Notes under the pieces: generated by a model
Told to the model about the DNA's origin: nothing
What the model saw: only the letters and a program-made list of their open reading frames with translations
Databases searched by the model: none
Position numbers and translations under genes: made by a program
Shown: piece by piece, positions 3,463 through 34,548 of the stretch
Layout of the letters: each line of letters opens with the position of its first letter
How positions within the stretch are numbered: the first letter of the stretch is position 1
Assembly: GCA_903906515.1 (NCBI GenBank)
Contig: CAIVKO010000203.1
Span: 1 to 37,802 of the forward strand
Reading direction: 5' to 3'
DNA length: 37,802 bases
From: Akkermansiaceae bacterium
GTDB lineage: Bacteria > Verrucomicrobiota > Verrucomicrobiia > Verrucomicrobiales > Akkermansiaceae

Positions 3463-3474
3463 CCTTTTTCAACT

Positions 3475-3500
3475 GTAGCGGCGGTCTATGACCGTCGCTA
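3475..3500 (+). repeat. Short REP-like palindrome, solo left arm
   Basis: GTAGCGGCGGTCT then ATGACCGTCGCTA, nearly identical to the copy at 131-155 and to the left arms of the paired elements at 7894 and 19537. It lies 13 bp past the stop codon of the upstream gene, and no right arm follows. Confidence 0.7.
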
Positions 3501-3642
3501 ATTCCTCTCCTGTTCCAAGAAAGAATTTTTTTACAAAACCACCGAAGGCTTGTAGGTGGTTTGGACAGGAGCTATTCGCGACGTGCCCGCAGGGCGAGAA
3601 GCTGTGGGGCGGCTTCAGGAGAGAAGAGGAGGAAGAATAAAT

Positions 3643-4349: not shown

Positions 4350-4758
4350 GGTTGCGGGGGATGCGGAGCTGGAAGTTCGCCGGAGAAAATGCGGGATGCC
4401 CGCTGGAAGCAAGTCCAATGATTGGCGGATTTTCCGGGAGCCGACGCTAGGGGGAGTTTTTAAACAACCGGGATTGAGAAGATTTTTTCACCGCCAAGAC
4501 GCCAAGTTCTCCAAGCCAAACTGATGAAAATGACGTGAGCTGGATATGAAAACCAAATAAAGTGGTATCCATTCAGCGGTTCCTTGGCGCACTTGGCGTC
4601 TTGGCGGTTCAAATCCACATGGAATTCCTGTGAATGCCCCCTGGCTTGAACGCACTACAATCATTGGCGGATTTTCCACGTTTCATTTCTGGAAAACTTC
4701 CCTAGTGTCATGCCAGTTCCGACCCGGAAGGATTCCGGAGCACCATCCCCATACCACC
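4350..4758. other. Divergent intergenic region with repeats
   Basis: This gap separates the YbjN-like gene (minus) from hflK (plus). It holds an inverted repeat at 4490-4608, flanked on both sides by an imperfect direct repeat containing the identical 15-mer ATTGGCGGATTTTCC (4421-4435 and 4663-4677). Promoters for both divergent genes should lie here; none is clear enough to call. An in-frame ATG at 4630 would extend hflK by 43 residues across the second direct repeat. I rejected that start because those residues look non-coding. Confidence 0.6.
4490..4608. repeat. Inverted repeat with CGCCAAGA-type arms
   Basis: Left arm ACCGCCAAGACGCCAAG starts at 4490. Right arm CTTGGCGTCTTGGCGGT ends at 4608 and carries an extra CTTGGCGCA unit. 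Both arms are tandem CGCCAAG-like units and face each other across about 64 nt. The transcript could fold into a long hairpin. The sequence resembles a widespread intergenic repeat class of unknown function. Confidence 0.8.
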
Positions 4759-5745: not shown

Positions 5746-6723
5746 ATGAAACCATTTTTCATCATCGCCGCCGCTTTTCTAACAATCATCATCCTCTCCA
5801 GCGGCCTCTACACCGTGGACCAGGCCGAACAGGTCTTCATCACCGAATTCGGCAAGCCGGTTGGCAAGTCGATCAACTCCGATCCGGATAAGAACGAAGC
5901 CGGACTGCATTGGAAAACCCCGTTCATCCAGAAGATCAACCGCATCGAAAAGCGCGTCCTCGAATGGGACGGCCCGCCCATCGGCATGACCACCCGGGAC
6001 AAACTCTACGTCACGGTGGACAACTTCGCCCGCTGGCGGATCACCAACCCGCAACTTTATTACACCAAGCTCAACAACGAACGCAGCGCGCTTTCCAGAC
6101 TGGATGACATCATCGGCAGTGAAACGCTCAGCGTCATCGCCGCACACGACCTCATCGAAGTGATCCGTAGCGACAAGGACCGCAAACCGGCCCGTGACGA
6201 GGCACTTTCCTCCGCCAATTCCAACCTCGGCGTCCTGCCACCGATCCAATACGGTCGGGCCACGCTGGATCGGGAAATCCTCACCGCCGCCCAACCGATC
6301 GTCCGCGAATGGGGCATCGAATTGTTAGACGTCCGCTTCAAGCGCATCAACTACAAGGCCGGCGTGATCGATAAAATCTATGCGCGGATGGCATCGGAGC
6401 GTCTGCAGATCGCCGACCGATTCCGCTCGGAAGGTGCGGGCGAGGCCGCCAAAATCATCGGCCGCAAACAGAAGGACCTGCTTGCCATCGAATCGGGTGC
6501 CTACCGCACGGAGCAGGAAATCAAGGGCAAGGCGGATGCCGAGGCCACCGGCATCTATGCGGCGGCCTACAGCTCCAGCCCCACCGCGGCGGATTTCTAT
6601 CAATTCATGAAAACCCTGGAGACCTATCAGAAAACCCTGGACAAGGACACCACCGTGATCCTGACCTCGGACAGCGATCTTTTCGGACTCTTCAAACACA
6701 TCAACAAGCCCGCGACTCCGTGA
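5746..6723 (+). CDS. hflC: SPFH-domain protein HflC
   Basis: A 325-residue SPFH/band 7 protein and partner of HflK. An N-terminal hydrophobic helix (residues about 4-22, FFIIAAAFLTIIILSSGLYTV) is followed by the characteristic VDQAEQVFITEFGKPV. The HflC-typical SPFH core follows (AGLHWKTPFIQ, then RVLEWDG and MTTRDKLYVTVDNFARWRI). The motif LLDVRFKRINY and the region MASERLQIADRFRSEGAGEA are standard for HflC, as is the C-terminal helical segment with ADAEATGIYAAAY. It sits 18 bp downstream of hflK. Downstream lies a long palindromic repeat, beginning 13 bp after the stop, which may protect or end the transcript. Confidence 0.92.
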   Translation: MKPFFIIAAAFLTIIILSSGLYTVDQAEQVFITEFGKPVGKSINSDPDKNEAGLHWKTPFIQKINRIEKRVLEWDGPPIGMTTRDKLYVTVDNFARWRITNPQLYYTKLNNERSALSRLDDIIGSETLSVIAAHDLIEVIRSDKDRKPARDEALSSANSNLGVLPPIQYGRATLDREILTAAQPIVREWGIELLDVRFKRINYKAGVIDKIYARMASERLQIADRFRSEGAGEAAKIIGRKQKDLLAIESGAYRTEQEIKGKADAEATGIYAAAYSSSPTAADFYQFMKTLETYQKTLDKDTTVILTSDSDLFGLFKHINKPATP

Positions 6724-6736
6724 GACTCCGTGTAAG

Positions 6737-6970
6737 GAGCTGTCTTAAAATGGCAGGGACCGATCCTCCGGGCGGTCCAGCGAATGGAATGAGAACGCGG
6801 GCAACCATGAAAATGCTTAGAAATCAAATCATGGACGATGGTTCACACCTCATTCTCTCGGACCGCCCGGAATGCCTTGGCCGCTTAGCGGCACAACTAA
6901 CCGCGAAGCGCATCCCGCATAGCCGTAGGCAAGATCGGTCCCTGCCTTCAGGAATATTCAAACAGCCTCT
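6737..6970. repeat. Long palindromic repeat, copy A (interrupted)
   Basis: The left arm contains GGCAGGGACCGATCCTCC and GGGCGGTCC (6752-6778). The right arm contains GGACCGCCCGGA (6860-6871) and GATCGGTCCCTGCC (6933-6946). Outer arms resemble GAGCTGTCT at the start and ACAGCCTC at the end. The same arms occur in copies at 12120-12301 and 34381-34492. In this copy a 61-nt sequence (6872-6932) splits the right arm. It fills the gap between hflC and xerD. Confidence 0.85.
6872..6932. repeat. Nested 61-nt palindromic insert
   Basis: Alignment to the uninterrupted copy at 12120-12301 shows extra sequence exactly between GGACCGCCCGGA and GATCGGTCC. The insert begins ATGCCTTGG and ends GTAGGCAA, giving short GCCT/AGGC terminal complementarity. 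It contains the hairpin GCCGCTTAGCGGC and a near-complement CCGCGAAGCG. It looks like a second small palindromic element that inserted into the first. No other copy is seen in the window. Confidence 0.6.
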
Positions 6971-6996
6971 TAGCAGCGCGGCACCGGCGATCTGAC

Positions 6997-7881
6997 ATGG
7001 AAGCGTCCACCGATTCATTCATCCGATATCTAGCCACCGAGCGCGGCCTGTCCGGGGCCTATCAGCTCTCGGTGCGCCAGTCGCTCGATGCCCTGGCGAA
7101 GTGGTGGAAACCGAGTGAAAAACCGCTGCGGGACATCGGCACGGATGAGCTCGCCGCATTTCTCAGCCTGCGCAAGAAGGAGGGACTCAACGCAGCCTCG
7201 CTACGCATCACCACCGTCCATCTCAAGATTTTCTTCCGCTGGTTGGTCGCCAGGGGGAAGTTGGAAATGGACCCAGCAGAGCCACTGCTGGCCCCACGCC
7301 CGGATCAGACACTCCCTGAAACGCTGCATGCCCGCGAGGTGGAGAAACTCCTGGTTTCCATCGACCCCGCCACGCCACTCGGCCGCCGTGACCGGGCGAT
7401 CCTCGAATTGTTCTATTCCTCGGGCCTGCGACTCTCCGAATTGTGCGGACTGCGCATGGAAATGATGGATACCGAGGAAGGATTCCTGCGCATCACCGGC
7501 AAGGGCAACAAAACCCGCGTGGTGCGGGTGGGCTCCAAGGCGCTCGATGCCATCGCGGATTTCATGACGAACGAACGCCCCGGCCTGGTGGGAAAACGGA
7601 CCACATCCCACCTATTTCTGAGCGTCCGGGGCACCGCGCTTTCGCCGGACCGCGTCCGCCAGATCGTCAAGGAGCGCGCCAAATTCGCTGGGATCGACCA
7701 GAACACCTACCCTCACCTGCTGCGCCACTCGTTTGCCACCCACTTGTTGGAAGGCGGCGCGGATTTGCGGGTGATCCAGGAATTGCTGGGCCACGCCGAC
7801 ATTTCCACCACCCAGATCTACACCCACGTGGACCGCAAGCGCCTCAAGTCGATCCACAAGCGCTTCCACCCGCGCGGATGA
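6997..7881 (+). CDS. xerD: Site-specific tyrosine recombinase XerD/XerC
   Basis: A 294-residue tyrosine recombinase, the usual length for the chromosome-dimer resolvases that act at dif. The N-terminal SAM-like core-binding domain covers residues 1-90 (FIRYLATERGLS) and the catalytic domain the rest. Visible catalytic residues are R145 (SSGLRLSELCGL), K169 (ITGKGNK), H240 and R243 (HLLRHSFATHLL), H266 (LLGHADISTT) and the nucleophile Y275 (TQIYTHV). The end KSIHKRFHPRG is typical of XerD. XerC cannot be fully excluded from sequence alone. It works with FtsK, whose gene lies at 20375-22939. It is preceded by the palindromic repeat copy A and followed by a REP-pair element, so it is probably transcribed alone. 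Confidence 0.92.
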   Translation: MEASTDSFIRYLATERGLSGAYQLSVRQSLDALAKWWKPSEKPLRDIGTDELAAFLSLRKKEGLNAASLRITTVHLKIFFRWLVARGKLEMDPAEPLLAPRPDQTLPETLHAREVEKLLVSIDPATPLGRRDRAILELFYSSGLRLSELCGLRMEMMDTEEGFLRITGKGNKTRVVRVGSKALDAIADFMTNERPGLVGKRTTSHLFLSVRGTALSPDRVRQIVKERAKFAGIDQNTYPHLLRHSFATHLLEGGADLRVIQELLGHADISTTQIYTHVDRKRLKSIHKRFHPRG

Positions 7882-7893
7882 GCGGGAAAACCT

Positions 7894-8033
7894 GTAGCGG
7901 CGGTCTGCGACCGTCGCTGATTCCCCCCTGGGGAGGAACGTTCAGGAAAAGCAAAAGAAGAGCTTCGCACATCTCAGCGGCATCGACGCTCATAGAGCGC
8001 CGCTACAAGCTTCGCAATCCGCCGCTACAGGCT
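7894..8033. repeat. REP-pair element, about 117 bp plus extra arm
   Basis: The left arm GTAGCGGCGGTCT-GCGACCGTCGCT (7894-7918) faces a right arm ending CGCCGCTACAAGC (8010). That gives a 117-bp element whose length and interior match the copy at 19537-19654: both have a run of C after the left arm, then AAAAGC and GCTTCG, then CTCA. A further half arm GCCGCTACAGGC lies at 8021-8032. It begins 13 bp after the xerD stop codon. Confidence 0.75.
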
Positions 8034-8134
8034 GAAATCCCGGCTTCGCGCCCCCGAATCCGGGACCAAGTGGAAGTATTCGAGATTTGCACTTGATTCC
8101 GGGGTGGGAAGTCCCTAGCCAATGGGCACCAACC

Positions 8135-8437
8135 ATGGGTCAACAATCGAATAAGATCATCAAACGCCGCCGTCGCGCCGACTACTTGAAGCGCAAAAAA
8201 GAGCTGGCTAAACTCGGCGGGCTCGTTAAACGGCCAGCCACCAAGAAGGAAACCACCGCCAAGGCACCTGCCAAGAAGGCCGCAGCCAAAAAGGCACCTG
8301 CCAAGAAGGTCGCAGCCAAAAAGGCACCTGCCAAAAAGGTGGCAGCCGCGACAGACGTGGCTGAAACCGCCGCCGTCGAGGTCACCGAGACCATCGAGAC
8401 CGCAGAAACCGCAGCACCGGATACCGCTGAGGCCTGA
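8135..8437 (+). CDS. Small Lys/Ala-rich bipolar-charge protein
   Basis: A 100-residue protein in three parts. Residues 1-28 are strongly basic (MGQQSNKIIKRRRRADYLKR). Residues about 38-70 hold three copies of a 10-residue repeat of the KAPAKKxAAK kind, as in histone-H1-like and AlgP-like tails. The last 30 residues are acidic, with Glu/Thr/Ala (VTETIETAETAAPDTAEA). The repeat is also seen at the DNA level as three 30-nt units from 8261. The basic part suggests nucleic-acid binding; the N-terminal arginine block resembles a conserved short verrucomicrobial protein I remember only vaguely. The start ATG at 8135 lacks a Shine-Dalgarno sequence. A strong terminator follows at once, so it is a single-gene unit. 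The function is unknown. Confidence 0.75.
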   Translation: MGQQSNKIIKRRRRADYLKRKKELAKLGGLVKRPATKKETTAKAPAKKAAAKKAPAKKVAAKKAPAKKVAAATDVAETAAVEVTETIETAETAAPDTAEA

Positions 8438-12121: not shown

Positions 12122-12301
12122 GCTGTCTGAATATTGTCAAAGGCAGGGATCCGACCTCCGGGCGGTCCAGAGCATGGGAAGCGAATGCATGGAGAATGAG
12201 CAGATCACCCGAGCCACGGCATTCTCAGAATCATTCTCACCTCATGCGCGGACCGCCCGGAGGATCGGTCCCTGCCTCAGGCAATATTCAGACAGGCTCT
12301 C
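12120..12301. repeat. Long palindromic repeat, copy B (complete)
   Basis: This is the most complete copy. Left arm GAGCTGTCTGAATATTG then GGCAGGGA, CTCCGGGCGGTCC. Right arm GGACCGCCCGGAGGATCGG, TCCCTGCC, then CAATATTCAGACAGGCTC. The arms are about 48 nt each. The interior contains GAGAATGAG and CTCATGCG/CATTCTC motifs that can also pair. It lies between convergent genes and could serve as a bidirectional terminator or RNA-stabilising structure. Confidence 0.9.
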
Positions 12302-13762: not shown

Positions 13763-13830
13763 AATAATCGGGAGAAAAAGTTGAGCACGGGTGCTTGGGC
13801 ACGTGAACGCTTCAACCCAAAGAAGTAAAT

Positions 13831-13964
13831 GAACCGCAGATTCACGCAGATGGACGTTAATATTAAGAGGTTCACGAAAAATTAGGCATTAACCCTATGA
13901 GCGAGCGCCCTGATCAACACAACTCATTGATTATCTGCGTTCATCTGCGTCCATCTGCGGTTCA
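13831..13964. repeat. Inverted repeat with CGCAGATGGA-type arms
   Basis: Left arm GAACCGCAGATTCACGCAGA, TGGACG (13831-13856). Right arm ATCTGCGTTCATCTGCGT, CCATCTGCGGTTC (13933-13963). The arms are built of roughly 10-nt CGCAGATxxA units and pair around a spacer of about 75 nt. This sequence type is scattered through many unrelated environmental genomes. The element lies about 100 bp upstream of fabD. Confidence 0.85.
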
Positions 13965-14063
13965 ATTATTCTTACTAGCGCCAGAACGGCATTTGAGGAG
14001 GTTTACTGACCCTATGGTTTTACGCTTTTCATAAGAGGCATCATCCCATAGACATCCCTCGAC

Positions 14064-17320: not shown

Positions 17321-19654
<2,334 letters not shown>

Positions 19655-34365: not shown

Positions 34366-34380
34366 GATACAAACGGCCAT

Positions 34381-34492
34381 GGCAGGGACAGATCTCCGAG
34401 CGGTCCGCGTGAATGGATGGTGAATGAAAAGCCGTTCCGATTCGCCCATTCGCATTTCTTTCGCGCGGACCGCTCGGAGATCGGTCCCTGCC
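34381..34492. repeat. Long palindromic repeat, copy C (core only)
   Basis: Left arm GGCAGGGACAGATCTCCGAG, CGGTCC and right arm GGACCGCTCGGAGATCGG, TCCCTGCC face each other around an 80-nt interior containing GAATG and CATTC motifs. The outer arms seen in copies A and B are absent. It lies 15 bp after the stop codon of the DUF1080 gene. Confidence 0.85.
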
Positions 34493-34548
34493 TGCGATAG
34501 TGAAAATCGTTTGCCTGCCGCGCGCAATCCGCGCAAGCTGTGCGTCCG

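Follow-up and report, generated by a model that had tools for sequence, protein, structure and literature searches.

A 61-nt structured module nested within a palindromic repeat of an Akkermansiaceae genome

The locus and its nested palindrome

The DNA analysed here (the window) is a stretch of 37,802 nt from the draft genome of an Akkermansiaceae bacterium. Copy A of a palindromic repeat, termed O, starts directly after an hflC-like gene (Band_7) and has an xer-type recombinase gene on its other side. The window holds two further copies, B and C, and the loops of the three differ. The right arm of copy A (6860-6946) reads GGACCGCCCGGA / 61 nt / GATCGGTCCCTGCC, whereas copy B at the same spot reads GGACCGCCCGGA G GATCGGTCCCTGCC. 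An earlier sequence-only reading of this DNA had held that copy A is split by 61 nt at one exact point relative to copy B. This was borne out, with the refinement that the 61 nt (hereafter the module) replace the one G of the empty copies, a net gain of 60 nt. The module sits between stems P2 and P1 of the right arm and is present once in the window (E 3.6e-17). The features are as follows.

6736..6970, forward strand: copy A of the O palindrome with the module, a composite (sequence, inverted-repeat search, folding)
6752..6765, forward strand: outer stem P1, left arm, GGCAGGGACCGATC (sequence, fold)
6767..6778, forward strand: inner stem P2, left arm, TCCGGGCGGTCC (sequence, fold)
6779..6859, forward strand: loop of the O element, A type, 81 nt
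6860..6871, forward strand: inner stem P2, right arm, GGACCGCCCGGA
6872..6932, forward strand: the 61-nt module (similarity and model searches)
6872..6875, forward strand: closing helix of the module, 5′ side, ATGC, pairing with 6917-6920 (covariation)
6880..6892, forward strand: hairpin A of the module, GCCGCTTAGCGGC (sequence, covariation)
6902..6910, forward strand: hairpin B of the module, CGCGAAGCG (sequence, covariation)
6917..6920, forward strand: closing helix of the module, 3′ side, GCAT (covariation)
6922..6930, forward strand: possible hairpin C, GCC-GTA-GGC (read from the sequence, outside the covariation count)
6933..6946, forward strand: outer stem P1, right arm, GATCGGTCCCTGCC (sequence, fold)
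12123..12300, forward strand: copy B of the O palindrome, without module
34378..34494, forward strand: copy C of the O palindrome, short loop, without module

O carries terminal inverted repeats of MITE type, with 46-nt arms that are 85% complementary in copies B and C, and O-like ends read AGAGCCTGTCTGAATATT; the module has short terminal complementarity only. Copy A as a whole folds far better than shuffled sequences, both as DNA (z = -7.2) and as RNA (z = -7.8). A third level of nesting, sought as CTGTCTGAATATT...AATATTCAGACAG without O inside, gave 0 exact matches, and the extension was read as part of the A-type O elements.

Other repeats share the window. A family of GTAG-type palindromes (TGTAGCGGCGGTCTATGACCGTCGCT), resembling published GTAG REPs, lies at 127-169, 3472-3514, 7891-7933, 19534-19576 and 19628-19651. 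Two more inverted repeats of different sequence, with 31-nt arms that are 87% complementary, are found at 4485-4613 and 13826-13968. At 8228-8347 a repeat of 15-nt period, inside the open frame 8087-8437, encodes Lys/Ala/Pro-rich units.

A repeat family with a covarying fold

The genome is a 4.48-Mb draft of 265 contigs. Searched with the 61-mer, it returned 23 places at E≤1, copy A included and some of them short matches; the weakest (L023) was read as coding and a chance hit. The module of C28 is identical to that of copy A over 61/61 positions (E 1.1e-25), and seven more copies match the whole 61 nt at 82-87%. A second identical copy and seven full-length ones mean that the 61 nt are not a chance sequence. 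When the unit was sought elsewhere in the genome, as the sequence-only reading had proposed, a sequence-only model (R1, built on 15 copies) found 31 places at E≤0.01. Twenty-five of these were read as lying next to an O arm, at an unchanged point, CGGA/ATGC...GGCA/A..GGTCCCTGCC, mutated copies allowed; five lie in other fold-backs and one, C188, stands outside this reading of hosts. The module was found in a GGCGGA/TCCGCC stem (C156, C168), in a GTGTGG repeat (C162) and in tRNA-tail-like sequence (C114, C105). In C25 it occupies both O arms and the middle is absent. At C85 (L010) the module is itself interrupted by a 21-bp hairpin with a one-base loop, perhaps another foldback event.

Filled and empty O arms were counted in 73 genomes of the genus with strict patterns. 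An empty arm (CGGA-N3-7-GGTCCCTGCC) is present in 36 of the 73, several of which have just one; run backwards as a control, the pattern matched once in G006, once in G016 and in no other genome. The pattern for a filled arm (CGGAATGC-N50-75-GGTCCCTGCC) matched seven of the 73, leaving six with the module, our own genome included, after G067 was dropped; its match and that of C35 in our own genome were judged by eye as other than the module. Filled arms number 17 in G000 (from 18, one coding match being dropped), three in G358 and one each in G039, G046, G053 and G016. Empty arms in our own genome (104+98 = 202 strict matches) are about 12 times commoner than filled ones (17 strict matches). 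In the best filled and empty pair, C223 reads CGGA/module/AGACGG against CGGA/G/AGACGG at C83:2187, with loops 92% identical. No target-site duplication of the module is visible in filled and empty pairs beyond a possible single A.

Palindromes pose problems for assembly, and a draft of 265 contigs could in principle create such a junction falsely. Six genomes that were assembled separately share this junction, though, it is found at many places far from contig ends, and we regard an assembly artefact as very improbable indeed.

The hairpin that the sequence-only reading had seen in the insert is present at 6880-6892. The terminal complementarity that it had also described exists (TGCC/GGCA), but the closure that covaries across the family is instead ATGC (6872-6875) with GCAT (6917-6920). 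The closing helix and hairpins A and B are paired in 95.8% of cells among 14 diverse copies (set A3). Both sides have changed in at least one of the 14 copies at six of the 12 pairs of these helices, values that 0 of 500 shuffles reach; the alignment was made by MAFFT on sequence, and the structure was picked after viewing the alignment and RNAalifold. The closing helix is ATGC:GCAT, and of AACC:GGTT type in L021 and L144. Slid structures score lower, with the exception of the -3 version, which has 10 further pair types against nine. The three helices of the module are supported by covariation. By itself the 61 nt fold modestly better than shuffles (z = -1.96, seven of 200 shuffles being equal or better). 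GTAG is found in some hairpin A loops and, in copy A, at CCGTAGGC; its position is variable. Rfam gave no match up to E 5 for 6700-7000 and, at gathering score across the whole window, two tRNAs and nothing else.

Other hosts and spread among relatives

A scan for the core pattern in genomes of named species from the GTDB r220 collection gave 18 stretches. Fourteen are in Verrucomicrobiota records, Akkermansiaceae among them, and the other four (Burkholderiales, Gemmatimonadetes, Chromobacterium and Cohnella records) were judged to be chance. Three of the 14 are O-type composites (L152, L164 and, with variant arms, L157), one is a GGCGGA stem (L156) and ten are of a tRNA-tail type (L159 without the right arm). 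In this last type the outer stem is tRNA acceptor and T-arm sequence together with its inverted copy, and the module starts where the T-loop reads GGTTCGA/A. The sequence after the module repeats the upstream tRNA-like tail in six distinct loci (L125, L128, L131, L145, L148, L155), a count drawn from 27 rows of 22 loci. ARAGORN calls a tRNA-Ser gene in L131, L145, L148 and L155, and no tRNA gene in L125 or L128. The rtT / tyrT repeats of E. coli lie downstream of a tRNA gene and carry copies of the tRNA 3′ end. The tRNA-tail forms of the module are alike by description only, and Rfam, run over 20 loci, did not report rtT at gathering score.

Two modules lie inside a GTAG-type palindrome in L144, the family that is also present in the window. 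Group II intron sequence (RF02001 above gathering) is held by L123, L126 and L140, and L124 resembles such sequence. The module is probably inserted in group II introns, judging from sequence comparison, at sites that are inexact. L140 and L123 have flanks like domain 5 (D5) and L146 holds an uninterrupted relative. The D5 families gave no match at E≤5 other than a weak plastid D5 elsewhere in L123, on the other strand, and the predicted folds of L140 and L123 are not clean. When domain 1 of L124 (filled) was compared with L126, L140 and L123, about nine bases matched on the left, and MAFFT placed the gap elsewhere.

With three duplicate records (L150, L151, L160) and stretches that were too short left out, flanks complementary above the 95% shuffle level were found for 13 of 38 modules outside O and for 21 of 30 O composites. 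In L123, L124, L138, L143, L133 and L134 the best complementary arm is unconvincing. L143, from the relative G015, holds three different module-like units in tandem.

R1 matched 16 of 38 relatives at E≤0.01, some of them weakly: 14 of 24 in the same genus and two of 14 elsewhere in the order, counts that still include chance-like weak matches (L135, L136). Under stricter filters (E≤1e-4) three of 288 genomes of the phylum, our own included, and one of 151 genera have a match. Viral contigs scanned for the module gave 0 stretches.

One alternative is that the module is a functional RNA at the 3′ ends of genes and tRNAs (a terminator, processing or stability signal), whose core is under selection and whose outer stem drifts. 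The helices do covary, outer stems differ yet remain complementary, the tRNA-tail forms lie downstream of tRNA genes and copy A directly follows the hflC-like gene. Most O elements, however, are without the module, which moreover occurs in tandem (L143, L144), in group II intron sequence and, near such introns, in both orientations (L140), and Rfam has no match to it. We consider this explanation improbable.

History of the composites and possible modes of movement

The sequence-only reading had claimed a datable order of insertion and proposed that this locus be compared in close relatives for an empty site. HflC was searched in 61 genomes of the genus, of which 43 had a match, and 30 loci (our own and those of 29 relatives) were compared. 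None of the 29 has an xer match or the inner-arm motif of O (up to one substitution) in the stretch compared, at least four of these hflC contigs ending within 420 nt of hflC. No examined relative keeps the neighbouring genes of copy A, and no orthologous empty site was found. That the order of insertion at this locus can be dated is not supported, and copy A probably moved as a composite. The outcome named as refuting the earlier claim was a 61-nt unit at this locus in all relatives and nowhere else; that outcome was not the one observed. There are two repeat families, as had been claimed, the module occurring also without O, and both have expanded; that the inner one is mobile in its own right is a matter of interpretation, taken up below.

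Sixty two O elements were gathered by similarity search, a set in which composites are over-represented (16/62) and those with decayed arms, such as C28, are absent. Composites make up 10 of 14 elements with A-type loops, three of 28 with B-type loops and three of 20 with short C loops, and carry the module on either side of the O loop. Loop flipping in palindromes may imitate entry on the other side. The parsimony minimum is eight changes on the long-loop tree and two on the short-loop tree, both trees having few columns, and well-supported branches force just two and one changes respectively. Composites are partly clustered: a number of changes this low arose in eight of 500 shuffles for the long tree and in 61 of 500 for the short one. 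The nearest loop belongs to another composite for eight of the 16 (shuffled mean 3.9, p = 0.053), a value that leaves clustering possible. Distances between modules are related only weakly, and without significance, to distances between loops (r = 0.18, p = 0.08, n = 15). We read this history as one of repeated entry combined with composites that spread ready-made. A common loop type, module place and orientation are seen in copy A, C28 and C4, which look like copies of one composite. Because its closest copies, C28 and C4, have the module in the same place and orientation, copy A most likely arrived ready-made.

Alternatively, there may be a single old composite: the module joined O once, or P1-P2-module-P1′ was the ancestral design, and it is not mobile now. 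Empty arms would then be losses, and gene conversion between shared arms would move the module among O loop types. Palindromic arms favour exchange, and a constant insertion point in O would also be expected if O had acquired the module once and shared arms had then undergone exchange. The point and the orientation relative to the arm are constant in six genomes, the order P1-P2-module-P1′ is found in O and tRNA-tail forms alike, and composites show partial clustering. Against this, the module also occurs in hosts without O arms, a filled and an empty element whose loops are 92% identical show a clean swap between G and module, and empty arms outnumber filled ones by about twelve to one. We hold a single old composite to be unlikely, if less so than a functional RNA.

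The explanation that we favour, and give a somewhat better than even chance, is that the 61 nt are a small non-autonomous structured element that has repeatedly entered fold-backs and is also carried along when its O host spreads. Such an element would be a repeat of 60-80 nt, in which a closing helix encloses hairpins A and B and is followed by the small hairpin C. It would have entered O arms more than once at one point, and other fold-backs besides, and once inside O would spread further along with that O element. The sequences show a compact folded unit, too small to encode a transposase, that has constant ends in O, covarying helices, exact junctions, about 30 copies and unrelated host fold-backs, with composites in all three O loop types; that the module is mobile by itself we infer. 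Placement in fold-backs is frequent, not universal. The module might move in folded, single-stranded form, through a Y1 (IS200/RAYT-like) transposase supplied in trans, or else by way of RNA, the latter suggested by the tRNA-tail and intron sites. Both routes would be consistent with the absence of a clear target duplication.

Palindromes nested in palindromes are already known, and the module described here is a variation on a known kind. The small dispersed repeats (SDRs) of cyanobacteria, in work attributed to Elhai et al. 2008, are reportedly very small, mobile and found within other repeats and structured sequences, and are said to be 21-27 bp long. The module is likened to them by description only, SDRs being much shorter. 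Mitochondrial double hairpin or repetitive hairpin-forming elements are, like the module, small gene-less hairpin units, intergenic and within rRNA genes (PMC2800124). In the sponge elements treated in that paper, substitutions fall in loops and stems are conserved, whereas the stems of the module covary and its loop and linker motifs are conserved. SDRs and these mitochondrial elements are the nearest analogues in behaviour. The GTAG/CGTC REP dimers resemble the module in that small palindromic repeats lie regularly inside other palindromes; PMC3733652 describes such dimers inside larger palindromes of A. variabilis, T. roseum and H. neapolitanus, and GTAG repeats in O. terrae, a member of Verrucomicrobia. 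As described there, the inner unit is a REP of 20-40 bp or a dimer, against 60-80 nt and several hairpins for the module, which, unlike those dimers, has several unrelated hosts, tRNA-tail copies included. REPIN/RAYT systems (PMC3116915) are likewise non-autonomous intergenic palindromes, and Y1_Tnp domains occur in our genome too; unlike in that system, a Y1 gene was not found beside the module or a complete O, and the module is not a pair of REPs. In the open-licence literature we found no description of the module or of O in Verrucomicrobiota.

A bolder proposal, which we put forward only as a possibility and with some doubt, is of a hairpin-invading bacterial element, a self-folding unit of 60-80 nt that repeatedly enters the loops or arms of folded nucleic acids. 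Its targets would be O palindromes, GTAG-type palindromes, the T-loop of tRNA-tail copies and stems of group II introns. If true, it would move while module and target are single-stranded, possibly via RNA, and would build nested fold-backs in which the local tRNA tail serves as outer stem. The movement of gene-less small bacterial repeats is poorly known. Exact boundaries in O, a covarying fold and both filled and empty sites make this a concrete system for testing movement as a folded single strand and its recognition. The tRNA-tail forms give a hint of the route: at six loci their outer stem corresponds to the tRNA nearby.

Enzymes of the Y1 class act on single-stranded hairpins, and Y1_Tnp matches number seven in our genome. 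In stretches of 2.2-3.2 kb at these seven loci, none of which provides an autonomous partner of the module, its motif was not found with up to four substitutions allowed. Four of them (L085, L086, L087, L089) hold single-arm O-like motifs with one mismatch and no arm pair. At L087 (contig C129) the frame 37-2727 is an open frame of 897 aa with GcpE (IspG) in two stretches and a Y1_Tnp domain between them; three direct repeats of 42 nt and one inverted copy lie at the flanks. We read this as a Y1 transposase unit lying in frame inside a core metabolic gene.
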